A stretch of 64,000 bases of DNA from Cliona cf. orientalis. Lineage: Eukaryota; Porifera; Demospongiae; Clionaida; Clionaidae. Shown here piece by piece: positions 48,038 through 61,597 of the stretch. The stretch spans positions 1,798,001 through 1,862,000 of the forward strand of contig OZ005704.1 in NCBI GenBank assembly GCA_963930775.1. The letters are read 5' to 3'. How positions within the stretch are numbered: position 1 is the first letter of the stretch; each line of letters starts with the position of its first letter. The position numbers and the translations under genes were made by a program. A model generated the notes under the pieces. It ran no database searches, was not told the origin of the DNA, and was given only the letters and a program-made list of their open reading frames with translations.

Positions 48038-48937
48038 TCATTTTCCCGTTCTCCTTCTCTTTGATCCTGTTATTTTCTTCTTCTTTAGTGCATTAGAACA
48101 TATCTGATGGTAATCTTTTAGCCCAGCCATCTCATCGTATATGAATTCCACAATGTTCTTGGTTTTATTGTACCTCCCATCATATTTTTTAGTTGCACCA
48201 GTCATTTCATCAATGGCATCCTTGCATTCATCATTAGTGATATACTTTTTAAAATTACCCCAGTTCCATGGAACTATGGTAAATCCAGCATCCACAAGCA
48301 TGGTAAGACATTGCAAGTTTAGGATCTTATTTCCCCTTCCTGTTTTACCCTTTCCCCTGTACGGAAGGGCAATGTGTATGGACGGCTTTGGGTTATTATC
48401 GTACATATTGTACAGCTTCATTGCACAGTCTGGACAAGGAGCACTGGTCAAATAAAACTTAGTTGGAAGGCCGCATTGTGCTACCATGTTGTCTTCTGCA
48501 TGATTTCCATCCCCAGAAACATAGACGTTTCCTTTTTCACTCAACTTAGGGCACTCAGGAGCAAAGAGGTATGTCCTGGATGGAATATATTTATCTTCAG
48601 GTTTAAACCAGGCCTTTCCCTTGAATATGGTCATCATGGAATCCAATTTTGAAAGAGTTAAATCTTGACTCCACCCAGCTTTCTCTATACATTTTGTACT
48701 CTCTGAACACACATTAAAGCAATAATTGATAATATATATCAATAATTTAATAGAAGGTTACAGACCCATTGCATTAGCCGTGAATTCTTGTCCAGCTGCA
48801 GCAGCCATTATGAGTGCCAGCTCTTCCATGGCATCAGTACCATCCAAATCAACATTGTGTCTCGCCACAGATGTACTCAGACTCACTGAGCCTATGGCAA
48901 CCAACATGACCAGAGAAAGCAGTCCCTTGCTCTGCAT
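48038..48937 (-). CDS. Secreted deaminase-fold protein, array copy A
   Basis: Predicted secreted zinc-dependent deaminase of unknown substrate. Exon 1 is 48937-48766 (signal peptide, MQSKGLLSL, then HNVDLDGTDAMEELAL); exon 2 is 48702-48038. Total 278 residues. The zinc motif is NHAEDNM plus SAPCPDCAMKLYN, the H-x-E...P-C-x2-C signature of cytidine-deaminase-like enzymes (Glu as proton shuttle, His and two Cys as zinc ligands), with 18 residues between Glu and Pro. Other array-wide blocks: CIEKAGWSQ, YLFAPECPKL, GLPTKFYLTS, FTIVPWNW and YHQICSNALKKK. Eight cysteines are shared by all full copies. The tail is Lys/Arg-rich. It is likely secreted because exon 1 is a clean signal peptide and no later membrane segment is present. 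AID/APOBEC-like is inference from motif order. Confidence 0.82.
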
Positions 48938-50011
48938 TTTGCTAATCTATAAGTTAAACCATTGATTTGCTGATAATGTGCTGTAGTTTTGTGTTTAAAT
49001 AAAGTTAAGCTAGGGTGCTGAAACTTTAAAGTAGGAAAATAGGCTCTATTCATCTCTATTCATTAGTTAGACATGTCCGTGATTATAAGGATTTCTCTGA
49101 ATAATAACTAAAGTTAAGCTAGGGTGCTGAAACTTTAAAGTAGGAAAATAGGCTCCCATTCATTAGTTAGACATGTCCACGATTATAAGGATTTCTCTGA
49201 ATAATAACTGTAGTAAATAAATATGCAATGGCCGGAATCAAATCCAATTGATCTTTGCAATACCGGTTAGTTATAAGTCTGCCAAGTTTTAGTATACGTG
49301 GATCGATAGATTTGACTTGCAGCATAACAGATCATAATATTATTTTCAGTTCCTGTCAGTTTGCAAAATAATCAATTTTTCTGATTGCAAAACTGCACTA
49401 CTCCAAACTTGATGCATATACATGTAAGTACACGTACCTCTCTGTTTATTCTACTTTCCAGCCACTCCGATTCTAGTATCGTGGCTCATGTTTAGGATAG
49501 TCCTTCATCTCCTCAACAAGCCTATAGTTAGCCTTGCTCAGTGTGAAGAGATAGCCAAGCAGCTTTCCATGACCTCTTCAGTAGGCTTTGACCCATTATG
49601 CTGGCATAAGTTTAGAATAATAGGGACAAATTTTGGTGGTATTAGCATTGAGCATAATGCTAGCATAATAGGCTCAGATTTACCAAATTGTGGGTGTGGT
49701 TAGGGTGCGGTTAGCGAAATTGGGTTCACATGTGATTTGATCTTGACAAATACATATAGGTTGCAAAAAATTTCAAGGATAGCAAATTGGCTGTAAATTT
49801 CTACATTACAATGGTTGTAAACACACTTTTTTTTCCTGTGGTGATTTGATCTTGACCACATGGCACATGGTCTAAAAAAGCTTAAGACCTCCCCGAATGG
49901 TCGAATGCATGCAGGAAAGCACTTCTATTTCAACCATCATCAGCTGCATCAGAGAGAGTATTCTCTATTTTGTCAAATTCATTCAAAAATCACTAAGAAC
50001 AGTCCCTAAGA
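48938..50011. other. Upstream of copy A: tandem duplication and shared 5' block
   Basis: A segment beginning AAGTTAAGCTAGGGTGCTG is repeated in tandem at about 49002-49110 and 49111-49210. Next, at 49226-49345, is the block GGCCGGAATCAAATCCAATT and following, also found upstream of copies B and D. The rest is AT-rich, with no gene. It ends at the first MITE-like element. Confidence 0.65.
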
Positions 50012-50303
50012 CAGTGGCGGATTTAGGGGGGTTTCGGAGGTTTCGACCGAATCCCCCTTTGGGCTGCACCTAGTTGTGATGATACGCTAACTGGAACCCC
50101 CCTCTCTGGTTACAGAACTAAGAAAACTGCTGTTGTGGCTCACCTTAGCATGCTTCAGCAGAAAATTCGTTCAAAAATCGATCGGTTGGGCTGGTACCAG
50201 TGGTAGTTGCTCTCGAACGATCAAAATGGGCGTGGTTTTTAGCCGAAAGTGGGCGTGGCTTCTAAAACAGAACCCCCTTCAGGAAATTCTAGATCCGCCA
50301 CTG
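50012..50303. mobile_element. MITE-like element 1 (CAGTGGCGGAT ends)
   Basis: A 292 bp element with inverted ends CAGTGGCGGATTTAGG (left) and CCTAGATC-like ...ATCCGCCACTG (right). A perfect 5 bp repeat TAAGA flanks it on both sides (50007-50011 and 50304-50308). No open frame of interest. The CAGTGGCG start is common among non-autonomous DNA transposons; superfamily not assigned. Confidence 0.75.
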
Positions 50304-50641
50304 TAAGAGACTCTGATATAGCTACAAACCTCAATACAATTCACGATGCTGTATAATTTTATACTGATTAATTATGGATTTTGATCATTTTTACAAGCAT
50401 AATACATGCATAATGCGAGCATAATAGGGGCTGTTTTGTGACAGGCATGGTAGAATAATAGGCAGAACTCTGAGCATAAAAGAATAGAATAATAGGCAAT
50501 TTTTTGAGCATAATAATTGGTCAAAGCCTACTCTTCAGTTCAAGAAGCCATTTCAATATGTTAATGAATATTATAAATAATTTGGGTGCACATCGGACAT
50601 CTAGCTGCTTGGCTGCTATAAAATTAAATATATATTATATA

Positions 50642-50683
50642 CACTGGCGTAAGAAGCAGGGGGGCTGGGGGGGGGGGCTGTAG

Positions 50684-50723
<40 letters not shown>

Positions 50724-50943
50724 ATCTTGTCAACCAAGTGGGCCTAAACCTAGGAAGATATTTAGCTATTCTACTAGGCCTTGACATCTTCAGATTTGTG
50801 ATGTAAAGTCTACTTTACAGCCAAATTAGCATAATAATGGGAACGGTTTGAAGGAGTATCGTGTGATCCAAAAAAATTTTTGCGCGCTTTGCGCGCAATT
50901 TTATTTACAGCCCCCTGTTCAAAAACATCTTCCTACGCCACTG
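50642..50943. mobile_element. MITE-like element 2 with 40-base C run
   Basis: Ends are CACTGGCGTAAGAAG (left) and CTTCCTACGCCACTG (right), flanked by ATATA at 50637-50641 and 50944-50948. Subterminal GGGGGCTG occurs at both ends in inverted order. A G run and then a run of about 40 C (50684-50723) follow the left end, and GCGCGCTTTGCGCGC lies near the right end. The run length is likely to be a sequencing or assembly uncertainty. Confidence 0.7.
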
Positions 50944-51342
50944 ATATAGAAGAGTTTAAACAAAAAAATAGCCTAGCTAGGAGTAGTTTGAGCCAAAAAT
51001 TCCATTTCAACTCATCTTCTCCGACGTACATAGCTACATTATTTTATCCAATTGAGCTGTTTTTAACCAAACACTTCAGAAATGGTTGAAACTAATTTGA
51101 AATTGGTACCTAGCAAATTGAGTTCCCAAAATTCCCTGGAGCTCGAGGGGTGAACACCATGAAGTTATCCAAAATGCCACTACTATGGCACACAAAATTA
51201 ATATTGACTTTTGAATCCCTGAAGCCCTGCAATACCGGAAGTGTTTATAGCCCAACACTTTGGATACTGGAGTGATTCAGAAGTGCAAATTTGGTGTTCA
51301 TAGCACATTATAGTGAGTATAGTTATAATCCCTTGTTAGATA

Positions 51343-51790
51343 CCGTAGACTCTGGTTAATAAGCGCATGCGCTTATAGCGGTAAACGGAATGACAGTATG
51401 CGCTTAATAAAGGATATGCGCTTATATGGCACATAACCACGCCCACTAATGTTTGGGCGCGGCACGTGATGGATGCGAGGCCCGCTAGCACTAGCGCTCG
51501 ATCGATCGATCGATCGATCGAGCACTTTAACGTTTACAGTTGCCGCTCAAGATGACGAGTGCTGGCGATTTGTCGATCTTCTTGCACGATAACGTTATTC
51601 GTGGCCATCATTTCTCCAAAGATAGCTGGACTCCAAATACTTTCCAGCCGGTCAAGGTCAGGTTCATAGAACGCCACGCCTATTAAGCGCATGCGCTTAA
51701 TAAACAATAGCTTATGACAAGAAGAGGGCATGCGCTTAATAAATAATATGCGCTTAATAGCGAGGTGCGCTTAATAACCAGAGTTTACGG
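51343..51790. mobile_element. MITE-like element 3 (TA-flanked, CCGTAGACTCTGG ends)
   Basis: A 448 bp element. Left end CCGTAGACTCTGGTTAATAA; right end, reverse-complemented, CCGTAAACTCTGGTTATTAA. TA lies on both sides (51341-51342, 51791-51792), as in Tc1/mariner-type insertion. TGCGCTTAATA recurs at least five times inside, and an (ATCG)n run sits at about 51501-51525. No transposase. Confidence 0.8.
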
Positions 51791-52161
51791 TATGTGTATA
51801 TTTTTTATAGGCAATTTTTTGAATTCTGACATGCCTACTAGACTACTATTGCAAGTATCTAGTAATAGTAGTATAACAAAAAATATACGGTACCCTCGCC
51901 CAGATAGTGTGCCAATTGATAATTTAGCTGTTTGGGCCTGTAATGAGTTAATTAGTCCCCCACGACCACTTGTGTCATCATAGTAATAATTACAAGTGGT
52001 CCCCCCAACATCCTGTGTGCACCATAAAATTAATGGTCCCCCTGCTGTATAAGCAGTCCCCCATAGCATACACGTATATGCATATTTGACTCTAATATCA
52101 ACCATGGCAAAGACTTTTAATCGATAGGTTTAATAATTAAATGCAGTTAATAGTTCTACCA

Positions 52162-53185
52162 CTATATACCACTTATGAGCTTGTGTCCACAACTGAATGA
52201 CAGAATTAAAAAAAGAGCAATTATTTCTTGTCTTGTTTTACTATTAATTTTTCCTTCAGTGTCTCCATTTCTTTTTTTTTTTTTGCAATAATTGGTATTA
52301 CACTTTTTTCCTTTTTTTAGTGCATTAGAACATATCTCATAGTAAATTGGCCTGTGCATACTATTTACAATATCCACAACTTTCTTGGTTCCTTTGTGCC
52401 TCTTGTCATATAAATCGTCTTTGTGACCAGTCATTTCATTAAGGACCGCCTTGCATTTATCATTGGTGATATATCTTCTAGCAAACATTTGCCAGTCCCA
52501 TGGAATTATGACAAATCCAGCATTCACAAGCATGGCAAGACATTCCCTGTTTAACTTCATATTGCCAGCTCCTGTTTTCCCCCCTCCCCTGTATGGACGG
52601 GCAATGTGTATGGTCGGCTTTGGTTTATTATTGTATGCATTGTATAGCATCATTGCACAGTCTGGACAAGGAGCACTGCATGGTCAACTAAAACTCGGTT
52701 GGAAGGCCACATTTTTCTGCCATGTTGTCTTCTGCATGCTTTCCACGGCCGGAAATATAGACGTGCCCTTTTGTAATCAACTCAGGGCACTGAGGAGCAA
52801 AGAGGAACGTCTTGGATGGAACATATTTCGACCATGGCTTTCCCTTGAATATACTCATCATGGACTTCAACTTTGAAAGAGTTAAATCTTCCCTCCTGGA
52901 CCATCCAACTTTCTCTATACACTTTATACTACCTATAAAGCGCACAATGTCATAAAAATTAATAATTATAACCTTGTTAACCGTACAGTAACTATGATAA
53001 ACAAACTTACGGGCCATTGTATTAGCCGTGAATTCTTGTCCAGCTGCAGCAGCCATTATGAGTGCCATCTCTTCCATGACATCAGTACCATCCAAATCAA
53101 CATTGTGTCCCGCCACAGATGTACTCGGACTCACTGAGCCTACGGCAACCAACATGACCAAAGAAAGCAGTCCCTTGCTCTGCAT
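52162..53185 (-). pseudogene. Secreted deaminase-fold protein, array copy B, disrupted
   Basis: Same two-exon plan as its neighbours: exon 1 53185-53011 (MQSKGLLSLVMLVAVG signal peptide), exon 2 from 52932. Exon 2 keeps GKHAEDNM, but just before the PCxxC block it has an in-frame TAG at 52688-52690, where the other copies encode Tyr, and a 4-base insertion at about 52677-52682 that shifts frame. Downstream, the PCPDC-containing frame stays open to 52162. The lesions would remove half of the zinc site, so this copy should be inactive unless the assembly is wrong. The rest is well preserved, indicating recent loss. Confidence 0.85.
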
Positions 53186-53689
53186 TTTGCTTGAATTGCT
53201 ATAATAAGTGTAGATCAATCTAACCATTGAGCATGATTTGTTGATAATGAGTTGTAGCTTTGTGCTTAAATAATGGAAGCTGAAAATGTAAATGTGTAGG
53301 ATATAGGGCAAAATTTTCTACACATTAATTTTCATTTATTTTCTGCCCTCAGATCCTCTGACAAAATGAATGTAGGAAAAGGTCATGTTTTGGTCAGGAA
53401 ATCACTAGCTAAGCATGTACAAGGAGTTCTCTGAATGTAAATAAACATGGATTCTGAATGGCCGGAATCAAATTCGACTGATCTAAGTAATAGCTACCAG
53501 TTAGTTTTAAGTCAGCAAAATTTAAACTATACGTAGATAGATTTGACTGGATCATAATAATATAATATCATTACTTTCAGTTCCTGTCAGTTAGCCATTT
53601 TCTGGTTCAGCGGCAAGTGATTTACAAGCTATAATAATATTATAATCACTCATGGGATTTTCTTCCATTTTACGTATTTTTCACCACGA
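53186..53689. other. Upstream region of copy B with blocks shared by copies A and D
   Basis: About 500 bp. The block at 53455-53570 (GGCCGGAATCAAATTCGACT start) and GCCATTTTCTGGTTCAGCGG at about 53593-53612 match the upstream region of copy D almost base for base, and the first also matches copy A. Candidate promoter sequence or a duplication relic. Confidence 0.6.
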
Positions 53690-53790
53690 CCAGTACCATC
53701 CAAACCACTGTAACAGTTGTGTCTTGCACTCACACTCATTGTGCGTATGGCGACCATCATGATCAAAGATAGCAGTCCCTTACTCTGCAT
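53690..53790 (-). pseudogene. Secreted deaminase-fold protein, array copy C: exon 1 remnant
   Basis: Begins like the other exon 1 copies (MQSKGLLSLIMMVAI, then SVSARHN) but the acidic stretch is altered and the frame is lost after LDG. No exon 2 follows before copy D. Its upstream flank (about 53876-53980) matches the flank of copy E (about 57320-57420), so C and E arose from one duplicated unit and C later lost its body. Confidence 0.8.
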
Positions 53791-54482
53791 TTTGCTTCAA
53801 AAAATTAGGAAACTATTGATTCATCTAAGATGCATACTTTTGCTTTTGTAATTAGGATTAAAATTAACATGATATGAAAGTAGGAAGCTAATTAAGTTCC
53901 TACAGCCGAAGTCATGCATGACAGGTGCATTTAAAACATTAATTCTCTGAATTGTACCACATTCAGTGACTGGAATAACGCAGTGCAAGTGTGGGTAGCT
54001 CCATGGTATAATAAGTCCATGGAGCACAACAGTTGGTATGATCATGAGTTGAAGCATACAAAAGTAAACCTGCCACCATGCTAGTATGCATGATATTTTA
54101 TCATGTATGTACAGTGCAGTTCAGTGACGGCCATGCACCCAGTACACATAGCTATGCATCTAGACTATATCAGCAGTCATCCCAGCTGGGAAGTGGACCG
54201 AAATTATAATTATTATCATCACAAAAGTTCATTGACACGAAGATAACAATAATTGGTATATTATGACTCTACATTTTCAATACAAAGAAGTCCGAGGAAC
54301 TAGCTAATTAAAAATTACAATTGGCATATGACTCTATGTCTTCAATACAAAGACAATCATTCAAACCTGGGGCACTAATTAAAGTTAGCTAGCTATATAG
54401 CAGTACTACAAAATTTAAAGTATTAGTATAGTGGGCCAAAATTCTCTGTCACTACAGTTATGGAGGTTACAAGTGTTTGGTA
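53791..54482. other. Spacer between copy C and copy D
   Basis: About 690 bp. It holds the C/E-type flank at 53876-53980 (GTAGGAAGCTAATTAAGTTC). ATATGACTCTA..TTCAATACAAAG occurs twice at about 54250-54290 and 54325-54355. No gene seen. Confidence 0.55.
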
Positions 54483-55349
54483 TTATTTCCCATTTTTTGC
54501 AGCATTTGAACATATTTGAAAATGATCCCCACTCATCACATTTGCCTTCTTTATAGCTGTGTCTATCTTTTCGTACCGATCTTGGTACTTCATATCATCA
54601 ATCATATCCTTTAGGGAATTCTTGCAATCATTATTGTTGATGTAGTTATCTTTAAAAGTACTCCAATTCCACGGAGTTAATGTGAATCCAGCATTCATAA
54701 GCATGGCAAGACAGTGCAAATTTACATTTAGGTTGCCCTCAGATCCTTCTTTTCCTTTTCCCTGGTAACGACAGGCAATGTGTATGGTCGGCTTTGGTTT
54801 ATTATTGTATGCATTGTATAGCATCATTGCACAGTCTGGACAAGGAGCACTGGTCAAATAAAACTCGGTTGGAAGGCCGCAATGTGCTGCCATGTTGTCT
54901 TCTGCATGATTTCCACCCCCAGAAACATAGACGTGTCCTTTTGTACTCAATTTAGGGCACTCGGGAGCAAAGATGTATGTTACGGGTGGAATAAATACGT
55001 TTGACCAGGCCTTTCCCTTGAATATAGTCATCATATTATCCAATACTGTATCAGTTAAATCTTGACTCCAGCCAACTTTCTCAATACAATTTATCTCTAT
55101 AAAATACAATGTCATAGAAATAATAATTATGATCATGTTAACAGTATTTTAATAAATAGAAACTTACGGACCCATTGCATTAGCTGTGAATTCTTGCCTA
55201 GCTGCAGCAACCATTATGAGTGCCAGCTCTTCCATGGCATCAATACCATCCAAATCAACATTGTGTCTCGCCACAGATGTACTCAGACTCACTGAGCCTA
55301 TGGCGACCAACATGATCACAGTCAAAGAAAGAAGCCCCTTGCTCTGCAT
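54483..55349 (-). CDS. Secreted deaminase-fold protein, array copy D
   Basis: Intact two-exon member: exon 1 55349-55172, exon 2 55096-54483; 263 residues. The signal peptide (MQSKGLLSLTVIMLVAIGSV) and the next 40 residues are nearly identical to copy F. The zinc motif is complete: NHAEDNM and SAPCPDCAMMLYN. Other blocks: CIEKVGWSQ, YIFAPECPKL, FTLTPWNW, HFQICSNAAKNGK. It lacks the long basic tail of F and ends soon after the last cysteine. All eight family cysteines are present plus one extra (IACRYQ). The donor ATGG|GTCCGT matches the phase used by A and F. Confidence 0.84.
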
Positions 55350-55867
55350 CTTGTTTGAATCTTAGACTAGCTAATTCTGCAAACTTTTGACTTGTTTACA
55401 ATTTTTGTGGACTGAGAATGATTTCCCAATCATTTCCTACTAGGGAAGAACCCACCCCCCCCCCCCCCAAGAGAATTTGGTCTCTGTGTAAGCTATGCGT
55501 TGATCTTTGTGTTTTGGTACAGTGAATCACTAGCTAAGCACGTACAAGGAGTTCTCTGTATGTAAATAACATGGAATGGCCGGAATCAAATTCGATTGAT
55601 CTATGTAATAGCTCCCAGTTAGTTTTACATCAGCAAAATTTAAAGTACACGTAGATACATTTGACTGGATCATAATATTTATTATTATTACTTTCAGTTC
55701 CTGTCAGTTAGCCATTTTCTGGTTCAGCGGTAAGTGATTTACAAGAATAATAATATTATTATGAAGAAGGATACAATTTTGGGCAAATTTAATCTGAGGC
55801 TAATGTCTAGAGCAGCTCTAATAGTTCTGACTAGATACCACTTAATTTGCATAATCTATGACAAAAA
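55350..55867. other. Upstream of copy D: flank shared with copy F and 5' blocks shared with B
   Basis: Bases 55350-55512 are almost identical to 58842-59015 upstream of copy F, including a C run. Bases 55570-55745 match the upstream blocks of copy B. The flank therefore mixes F-like and B-like parts. Confidence 0.65.
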
Positions 55868-57226
55868 TTATTGCTCACTGAAAAGGTATCTCTCATTATT
55901 GACATCATTTGCAGTGTACCTTGCATAATCAACGTAATTACTTGCTGCAATATACCTCTCGTCATTCGCAGGGGATTTCTCATTATTTGTGGTGTATCTT
56001 TCACTATTTGCAGTGTACCTCTCATTATTGACATTATTTGTAATATATCTCTCGTTTTTTGCAGCATACCTCTCGTTATTTGCAATATTATTATACCTCT
56101 CATTATCGACAATATTTATAGGATTCTTCTCAGTGTACCTCTCGTTATCAACAGTGCTGGCAGCATCTCGACATATTCTATAATTATGATCATGACCCCA
56201 AGTCATCACATCCATTGCTCGCTGAATAGTGGTCATTGCCTTACTGTACCTCATGTTGTACGATGAATCCGAATCACTAGTCATTTCATTTATGGCTTCC
56301 GTGCAGTCCGCATTGGTGATGTAATCATGCTCAAAGTCAACCCAACTCCATGGAACTATTGTGAATCCAGCATCCATAAGCATGGCAAGACAGTGCAAAT
56401 TTGCTTTCTTACTGCCTGGTTTTTCTTTCCCCTGATATGATCGGGCAATATGAATGACTGGCTTATAATCCTTCGCTTTGTATTTATTGTACAGCATCAT
56501 CGCACAGTCTGGACAAGGTGCACTGGTCAAATAAAACTCAGTTGGAAGGCCGCACTGTGCTGCCATGTTGTCTTCTACATGCTTTCCACCCCCAGAAACA
56601 AAGACATGTCCTTGAGTACGGAGGTTGGGGCACTGAGGAGCAAAGAGGTATGTTGTGCCCCACCTTACACCGAGAAAGGTTTTCATCATCTCATCCAATA
56701 TTTGAAGAGTTAAATCGCCACTCCAGCCTTCTTTCCTTATACAGGGTGAAGCTGCAGATAACCACAATGATTTGTGACACTTTTCCTTATAAAATTACTT
56801 GACTCATGCATATACTGACTGTAAAATAATTATTAATATTTGACAATGTAGGGAAGCCGGTTGAAATCAACACAAACTTGACCGGGGACAGTACTTCAAA
56901 TACAAAATAAGTGCATGTGTTATCAAAGATTCTGTCTCCAGAAATTGAAGCCATCTTCGGTACTACAACTAGTGTCATAGGAAGCATTTCAAGGACTGGT
57001 GATGCATGCAATCTAGGTTATCTACAACATGCATACAATGTTCCCTGACAGGTGCATCCTTACCGCTTCCCATTGCTTTAGCTGTGAACTCTTGTACAGC
57101 ATCCATCACAAGTGCCGGCTCTTCTATAGCATTAGTACCATCCAAATCGATGTTGTGTCTTGCACTCAGACTCACTTGGCCAATGGCGATCATCATGATC
57201 AAAGAGAGCAGTCCCTTGCTCTGCAT
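55868..57226 (-). CDS. Secreted deaminase-fold protein, array copy E, with NERY-repeat tail
   Basis: Exon 1 57226-57064 (MQSKGLLSLIMMIAIGQVSL signal peptide), exon 2 56751-55868; 348 residues, the longest copy. The zinc site reads KHVEDNM instead of HAE, with SAPCPDCAMMLYN intact, so the His, Glu and Cys residues remain. Eight cysteines are kept. After the conserved RICRDAAS end comes a tail of about 95 residues built of eight (N/S/D)ERY motifs plus a degenerate ARY (NERYTEK, NERYAAK, NERYTAN and so on), rich in Asn, Ala, Thr and free of cysteine. No other copy has it. The frame through the repeat is open, which argues for a real coding repeat. It may be an adhesive or low-complexity surface region; function unknown. 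Confidence 0.8.
55874..56160 (-). repeat. Coding repeat: NERY motifs in copy E tail
   Basis: An irregular tandem repeat of about 21-45 bp units around a core reading GAGAGGTA on the minus strand (TACCTCTC on the plus). It encodes the NERY tail of copy E and looks like recent slippage-type expansion. Confidence 0.8.
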
Positions 57227-57848
57227 TTTGCTTCAGTGAATAGATGTAGACTAAAATGTTTGATTTGGAAACTATTGATTTATCAAAGGTGCTTTTGTTT
57301 TAAAGGACTAAAACTATCATGATATTGAAAGTAGGAAGCTAATTAAGTTCCTACAACCGAAGTCATGGCAGGTGCATTCGAGACATTCTCTGAATTGTAG
57401 TACATTCAGTGACCGGAATAATTATCTCTTAGCTTCAACTTGCATGAAGTTAAGAGGATCACTGACAGTTGAATGATACAAGATTGTAGCTATATTTGTG
57501 TTGCTATCACAGTGTGAGCTCTTGTGTTTCGATCAGTTCTCATGTATCTAAATTATAATAAATGTCTCCCACTATGCAGCATTGATAGCATTTCATGTCA
57601 CATGCCTCTCATAATCAATATTATTATAATGATACCTCTGATAATAATGAACCACATGTACAATATATAGATCATGATCTAAGTGATTAACTTTTGCTAT
57701 CTAGTAAAATTTTACACCTTGCTTGATCAGTTCTGTAACTAGCTACTTAACAAGGCGCATGCATGCAGTATATGCACTATAATATTAATTGTATGACCTT
57801 TATATTATGCACTGAAATACTATCTGTTATAATAGCTAGATGTTGATA
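57227..57848. other. Spacer between copy E and copy F
   Basis: About 620 bp. Bases 57320-57420 match the flank of remnant C (53876-53980). The rest is AT-rich and probably includes the copy F 3' UTR. No gene seen. Confidence 0.55.
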
Positions 57849-58841
57849 TTATTTCCCTCTTTTTTTCCCTCCTTTTCCTTTGATTACCTTTCTCCAATTT
57901 TTATTTTTATTCCAAGTTTTCTTTTTATTATATTTTGGTGCCTTCACTGTTTTCTTTTTTAATGCATTAGAGCATATCTGATGATAATCCTTTGTGGCAC
58001 CGGCCATCTCCTTATTTATGAACTTCACAACTTCATTGGTTTCACCATACCGCTCGTCATATATATCCGCACCAGTCATTTCGTTAATGGCAGCCTTACA
58101 TATATCATTAGTGATATATCTTTTAGCAAAATTACTCCAATTCCATGGAACTATGGTAAATCCAGCTTTCACAAGCATGGTAAGACATTCCAAGTTTAGG
58201 ATCTTATTTCCCCTTCCTGTTTTACCCTTTCCCCTGTACGGACGGGCAATGTATATGGTTGGCTTTCGTCTATAATAGTACCTATTGTACAGCATCATCG
58301 CACAGTCTGGACAAGGAGCACTGGTCAAATAAAATTCAGTAGGAAGCCCACACTGTGCTGCCATGTTGTCTTCTGCATGGTTTCTATGGCCACCCCCAGA
58401 AACATAGACGTGCCCTTTTGATCTTGTACGCATGTTTAACTTAGGGCACCGAGGAGCAAAGAGGTATGTTCTTGGTGGAATATATTTGTTTTTAGGTTTG
58501 AACCAGGCCTTCCCCTTGAATATAGTCATCATAGAATTCAAATTTGAAAGAGTTAGATCTTGACTCCAGCCATGTTTCTTGATACATTTTGTACTATCTA
58601 AGCACATGCATTATAATGGAATAAACTTGATAATAATTTAACAGATTCTGAAGGCTTACATACCCATTGCATTAGCTGTGAGTTCTTGTCCAGCTGCAGC
58701 AGCCATTATGAGTGCCAGCTCTTCCATGGCATCAATACCATCCAAATCAACATTGTGTCCCGCCACAGATGTACTCAGACTCACTGAGCCTATGGCAACC
58801 AACATGATCACAGTCAAAGAAAGAAGCCCCTTGCTCTGCAT
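57849..58841 (-). CDS. Secreted deaminase-fold protein, array copy F, basic tail
   Basis: Intact two-exon member: exon 1 58841-58664, exon 2 58597-57849; 308 residues. The signal-peptide exon is nearly identical to copy D, but exon 2 is closest to copy A (RGKGKTGRGNKILNL, FTIVPWNW, YHQICSNALKKK). The zinc motif is complete: NHAEDNM, SAPCPDCAMMLYN. It has a small insert (NMRTRSK) before GHVYVSGGG and a second (HR) before NHAED. The tail after the last cysteine is about 40 residues and strongly basic (KKKTVKAPKYNKKK, then KGKGGKKRGK), unlike D and E. A basic tail on a secreted enzyme could bind nucleic acid or anionic matrix; that is inference. Confidence 0.84.
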
Positions 58842-60733: not shown

Positions 60734-61597
60734 ATGGAATCGACTGTTCCAAGCTTGATGTTTGCCACCGTGATCATAACCTTATTTTCTTCTTCCGCTC
60801 ATGGTCAGCAGCAGGGAAACACTTGCAATGCCTGCAATTGTCAATTCAATAATGTCGAAGTTCTCACTCACTTAATTAAGTCAGTCACAGCTGAATCTCT
60901 AGGTATATAAGCCATCATTGTAATTATTATTGTTACTTATTGCAACTATTAGCGCTGACTACTTGATTAAAATTAATGTATACTATAATATATTATTATG
61001 GGACATTTATACAAAAGTTCCACTGCCTAACTGTACAATTATTTTCCAGTTTCTGGAGTGACTTACACCAGGTGGGGAAAGACTGCTTGTCCAACTTCTA
61101 CTGGAGCTCAGCTGGTCTACTCTGGAAGAGCTGGGGGATCTCGTCACAATGTTCACGGAGGATCAGCTGAAAAGCTTTGTCTACCTGACGATCCTGATTA
61201 CACTCCTGAAACTGCGGGTGTCGACCCTGCTACTGCTAAAAGTGTCATCTATGGCGCTGAGTATGAAGTTTTTGTTGGTCCACTTGCAAATGCCTCTGAG
61301 TATAATGCACCATGTGCTATCTGCTTTGTTCCTACTAGAGCTTCAGTTATCATGATTCCTGCTAAGACAGTTTGCCCTTCTTCCTGGACAAGAGAGTACT
61401 ATGGCTACTTGACAACCAATATTCACCGTCGATCATCTTTCACCTGTCTTGATAATAGCCCAGAAGGAATACCAGGGACTGGAACTAGTACTACTGCTAC
61501 TGCATTCTTCTACTACACTATTACTACTTGCAATGGCCTCTCATGTCCTCCTTACGAAAACAACCGAATACTCTCATGTGTGGTCTGTACTAAGTGA
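60734..61597 (+). CDS. Secreted protein with sponge short-chain-collagen-type C-terminal domain, copy 1
   Basis: Exons 60734-60902 and 61050-61597 give 238 residues. Exon 1 encodes a signal peptide (MESTVPSLMFATVIITLFSS, ending SSAHGQQQ) and a Cys motif, CNACNC. Exon 2 encodes a domain found in secreted proteins of sponges, cnidarians and molluscs and at the C-terminus of sponge short-chain collagen C4: VTYTRWGKTACP, LVYSGRAGGSRHNVHGG, CLPDDPDY, YGAEYEVF, CAICFVPTRASVIMIPAKTV, YYGYLTTN, CPPYENNRILSCVVC. There is no Gly-X-Y collagen stretch, so this is the domain alone. Probably an extracellular matrix or secreted lectin-like factor; function not established. A tandem paralogue starts at 63391. 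Confidence 0.85.

Follow-up and report, generated by a model that had tools for sequence, protein, structure and literature searches.

A tandem array of probably secreted AID/APOBEC-like deaminase genes in the sponge Cliona cf. orientalis

Results

Array layout and gene models

The stretch analysed (64,000 nt, positions C16:1798001-1862000, contig OZ005704.1; hereafter the window) comes from the genome of the sponge Cliona cf. orientalis, which is assembled into 149 contigs with a total of 216.8 Mb. It carries an array of related genes which probably encode secreted deaminases of the AID/APOBEC superfamily. Starts with the sequence MQSKGLLSL were found at 58841, 57226, 55349, 53790, 53185 and 48937, all six on the minus strand. 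A previous sequence-only reading of this DNA described six copies of one two-exon gene. The six starts were confirmed and its coordinates agree with our gene models; however, only four copies are intact two-exon genes (A, D, E and F), one gene (B) is broken and one copy (X) is a fragment. The features are as follows, from low to high coordinates:

48038..48702, minus strand: gene A exon 2, AID/APOBEC-fold domain with HAE and PCPDC, followed by a K/R-rich tail; includes the stop
48766..48937, minus strand: gene A exon 1, signal peptide (judged by eye) and linker of ~30 residues, donor GTCTGT
52162..52932, minus strand: copy B exon 2, broken by an in-frame TAG and an HAE/PCPDC frame change
53011..53185, minus strand: copy B exon 1, open
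53691..53790, minus strand: X, exon-1-like fragment without a deaminase exon
54483..55096, minus strand: gene D exon 2, deaminase domain, long tail absent
55172..55349, minus strand: gene D exon 1
55868..56751, minus strand: gene E exon 2, deaminase domain with HVE and PCPDC, then a NERY-repeat tail
57064..57226, minus strand: gene E exon 1
57849..58597, minus strand: gene F exon 2, deaminase domain with HAE and PCPDC, then a long basic tail
58664..58841, minus strand: gene F exon 1

The exons of the intact genes are separated by phase 1 GT..AG introns of 63 (A), 75 (D), 312 (E) and 66 nt (F), and the open proteins comprise 278, 263, 348 and 308 amino acids, respectively. The splice model is backed by two relatives: in the alignment, an intron-like stretch follows 'AKEMD' in P0028 and is missing from P0029, which may be RNA-derived. 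In copy B, the frame change between HAE and PCPDC places the two motifs in different frames. The exon-2 pieces were 63–90% identical to the reference copy over ungapped stretches of 89–265 nt (families D1, D2, D5, D6 and D9), a likeness among the copies which is far beyond chance.

Protein features

A signal peptide was clear by inspection in all four intact copies (K4, a hydrophobic core whose best 9-residue mean is 2.9–3.1, then for example TSVA followed by RH), which at this level supports the secreted architecture proposed previously. The zinc signature HxE plus P-C-x2-C was likewise present in all four, as H-[A/V]-E (HVE in E) and PCPDC. In an alignment of 46 proteins (A2; residues are given in model numbering), H67, E69 and C92 were invariant and P88 and C89 were conserved in 45 of the 46. 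The spacer between HxE and PC was 18 in all five genes compared (the four window genes and a gene on contig C12), and the profile alignment paired 'LTSAPCP' with 'LTWSPCP' of APOBEC3H. The stretch 'IARPYxGKGK' after strand 4 corresponds in the alignment to the loop-7 region of APOBEC3F. It is conserved, residues 111–120 averaging 0.92 bits as against 2.3–2.6 for residues 161–200, and its motif differs between the array copies (A ALPY, D ACRY, E ARSY, F ARPY). Among the full-length alignment rows, the loop ahead of strand 1 came in eight different lengths between 5 and 20.

Six cysteines beyond the zinc pair are common to A, D, E and F. The first is residue 4; for the other five, the alignment gave retention in 46/46 (C50, C76 and C131), 45/46 (C159) and 45/45 proteins (C201). 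The paralogs lacking HxE (see below) keep four of the six cysteines and lack the equivalents of both C50 and C76, which suggests that C50 and C76 may form a pair. The C-terminal tails of A and F are rich in K/R (mature pI 8.85 and 9.84, respectively); D has no such tail, and that of E is made of NERY repeats. The repeats in E (55868–56180) are degenerate, with a 21-nt period in the DNA; NERY-like tails also occur on the homologs P0013, P0016, P0031 and P0032.

Fold and family assignment

All matches listed in the structure comparison were AID/APOBEC structures. Together with the profile comparisons, this upheld the deaminase fold proposed in the sequence-only reading, specifically of the AID/APOBEC type, and the membership of the array proteins in this superfamily is firm. 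The narrower assignment to the SNAD4 kind is made with moderate confidence. The tag PF18750.9 was precomputed for P0001 (the window's own exon 2) and for 25/29 and 43/53 of the homologs listed. With the SNAD1 model, none of the four window copies had a listed match at E ≤ 10.

None of the 177,635 distinct PDB sequences matched copy E, searched on its own, at E ≤ 10, and NCBIfam over four proteins gave one weak, unrelated match and nothing else. The top matches of the profile search with A2, 'Pizza' designs with E 0.0016 at best, were rejected as sums of sub-threshold repeats. No Rfam match reached the gathering score within the window.

Paralogs and genome context

A search of the genome with exon 2 of copy A gave 13 matches, six of them in the window (B as two pieces). 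An intact gene on C12 has the MQSKG exon 1 too and keeps HxE and PCxxC. A frame-broken, E-like copy in two pieces lies at C16:1948 kb on the opposite strand, ~93 kb from the gene E region, to which it is 88.6% identical over 1235 nt. The more distant paralogs matched are on C8, C18 (two) and C3. AID/APOBEC-like paralogs without HxE were located at C18:3552.8-3556.7 kb, C8:4529.3 kb and C3:1072.8 kb (L029, L030 and L031). They keep PCxxC (SPCPxC in three, SPCLLC on C3) and the loop-7 region, and HxE was missing at its usual place in all 29 homologs listed for them.

A second cluster, of another type, with deaminase-like HxE/PCxxC frames was seen at C13:8395.9-8413.0 kb and C17:1328.9 kb (L024–L026 and L032). 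Some of these frames have an N-terminus which looks transmembrane-like by eye; the two scanned scored 27.3 bits each with NAD1 and 27.0 and 24.9 with SNAD4.

Of ten other reading frames of the window scanned with Pfam, those closest to the array encode an ANCHR-like B-box protein, an EF-hand protein and an arginyl-tRNA-protein transferase; no match suggested a role in immunity. The plus-strand reading frame at 61031–61594 had no Pfam match; we take it to resemble the C-terminal regions of short-chain collagens. A run of 40 C lies between A and B (50684–50723).

Evolution of the array

Pairwise dN/dS values of exon 2 ranged from 0.29 to 0.61 (six pairs), which indicates purifying selection overall, with no sign of positive selection at the pairwise level. 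In a tree of 54 rows, A, F and the C12 gene belong to a single clade of 12 rows (97/94), while D and E share a group of 13 rows (92/91). Relatives in other sources, which may in part represent the same species, were 85–93% identical to A, E and F, and one was 99% identical to D. Since all four have such relatives, each lineage appears to have persisted, and the array lineages would predate the splits from these relatives unless the sources are the same species. The sequence-only reading is supported in its proposal of tandem duplication with decay of some copies, whereas the rapid turnover also proposed there is weakened by the dN/dS values and the close relatives elsewhere.

Aligned pairwise, the copies D and F were 84.5% identical in the upstream 200 nt, 96.6% in exon 1, 43.5% in the intron and 73.8% in exon 2. 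In the multiple alignment, the windows of their 5' block were 92–100% identical, those further on 62–88%, and identity dropped to 55% at the 3' end. The circular-shift test of the shared 5' block gave 53 of 1058, so that an exchange of this block between D and F by gene conversion is suggestive only. The pairs A-F and A-D are alike in exon 1 only, with unlike upstream flanks, and this likeness could equally be explained by constraint. The dS values were lower in exon 1 than in exon 2 in all six pairs. The greater likeness of exon 1 and the D/F 5' block suggest that the copies may exchange sequence, although the formal test is weak. Groups of listed homologs with equal longest contigs (11,292 for P0004 and P0005; 96,094 for P0039, P0042 and P0045) suggest that such deaminase genes are clustered elsewhere too.

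Discussion

The products of the array are probably secreted cytosine deaminases that depend on zinc and belong to the AID/APOBEC superfamily, more narrowly to the SNAD4 kind of sponges. The analysis established the gene structure, the motifs and the predicted fold; secretion, zinc binding, catalysis, the substrate and an immune role are inferred. Exon 1 would provide the signal peptide and a short linker, and exon 2 a single AID/APOBEC domain, probably braced by disulfides. Zinc would be held by His67, Cys89 and Cys92, and Glu69 would shuttle a proton in the conversion of C to U. The loop after strand 4, which matches loop 7, probably grips a single-stranded substrate, and the basic tails of A and F may add to substrate affinity. 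The likely target would be foreign RNA or single-stranded DNA in an extracellular or endosomal space, with viruses or other microbes as the most plausible source.

The name for secreted AID/APOBEC-like deaminases dates from 2018, and their SNAD4 branch was reported from sponges (PMC11004436, PMC8201067); SNAD4 is reported as identified only in sponges (PMC11004436), and both papers state that SNAD activity and role are unknown (PMC11004436, PMC8201067). The array proteins look like members of an already-named sponge family, and their novelty was overestimated in the sequence-only reading. They share with SNAD4 the tag on P0001, the signal peptide (by inspection), HxE/PCxxC and the AID/APOBEC fold, but score under the PF18750.7 cut-off. 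Our literature searches gave no account of such a tandem array; the founding paper (Krishnan 2018) may contain one. The main text of PMC5956068 does not contain 'sponge', 'porifera' or 'signal peptide', and in PMC13402138 the matches to 'SNAD4' are symbols of genes (for example snad_409) and do not refer to the clade. SNAD1-3, known from fish and other vertebrates, also have a secreted AID/APOBEC-like domain and many paralogs, and the carp genes listed have two or three exons; SNAD1 differs in having CVxxC, as against CPDC in the array copies (PMC11004436). Vertebrate APOBEC3 and AID differ in being intracellular, whereas the array proteins have Ser in place of the Trp of WSPC, a spacer of 18 and six extra shared cysteines.

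Several results weigh against the SNAD4-type deaminase assignment. Secretion was called from a signal peptide read by eye. The HxE–PC spacer falls short of the 25–30 given for classical AID/APOBEC-like deaminases, a value which applies to classical and not to secreted members (PMC11004436), and 45 of the 46 aligned proteins have Ser where the APOBECs have the Trp of 'WSPC'. In searches with hidden Markov models, which had been suggested as a check, the AID and APOBEC3 models matched more members of the alignment (44/46 and 36/46) than SNAD4 (32/46), and the four intact copies scored 14.5–20.6 with PF18750.7 against a cut-off of 27 bits. A piece of copy B scanned with PF18750.7 gave no match. 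In the PF18750 search of the sponge's own genome, 4 of 15 matches were above the cut-off, none of them in the array, and other paralogs outscored the array copies with the SNAD4 model. Weak PF18750 matches count for little anyway because sub-cut-off matches occurred in 8 of 14 control genomes (above cut-off in none).

A more elaborate proposal, which we consider tentative and rather unlikely, is a two-part secreted system. Active tandem deaminases exchanging 5' blocks would be accompanied by a separately conserved secreted clade without the active-site His and Glu, which keeps the fold, the Cys pair and the substrate loop and would serve as a decoy, binder or regulator of the active ones in extracellular nucleic-acid defence.

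It is unlikely that the proteins are deaminase effectors directed against microbes or neighbours and acting after entry into target cells like the deaminases of bacterial polymorphic toxins. The secreted architecture, the tandem copies and the difference between the basic tails of A and F and the NERY repeats of E would fit such effectors, and SNADs may derive from bacterial toxin proteins according to PMC8201067. However, a Pfam scan of the copies showed no entry or delivery domain, and none of the 13 and 19 pattern matches in genome_contigs and viral_contigs, respectively, was confirmed as a relative at the sensitivity of the tool.

A secreted cytidine or dCMP deaminase acting on free nucleosides or nucleotides for salvage or feeding is very unlikely. 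Its zinc chemistry would be identical and the Ser-for-Trp pocket might accept free nucleotides. The Pfam model dCMP_cyt_deam_1 (PF00383) matched three of the four intact copies, below its cut-off (E 0.018–0.033), and deoxycytidylate deaminase structures appeared at E 0.35 and 0.52 in the profile search. Against this, AID/APOBEC structures made up the whole of the structure matches listed, and 'ARxY' in loop 7 is of the type acting on nucleic acids. The viral structure library gave 145 matches at E ≤ 10 and none at E ≤ 0.001; the best E was 0.05 among named dCMP-type viral deaminases, and two viral proteins without a name had E 0.008 and 0.028. Least probable of all is a declining lineage of mostly decaying duplicates with little function: two of the six window copies and the copy at C16:1948 kb are broken or partial, but HxE and PCxxC are kept in four window reading frames and in one on C12, dN/dS is 0.29–0.61, and every intact copy has close relatives elsewhere.

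In vertebrates, AID and APOBEC3 serve antibody diversification and antiviral mutation. Secreted deaminases of the SNAD4 kind in a sponge would bear on the origin of AID/APOBEC chemistry. The array proteins are practical to express and assay because their genes are short, disulfides are likely and the structural model is confident, and the sister clade lacking HxE provides a built-in contrast to the copies bearing the active site.
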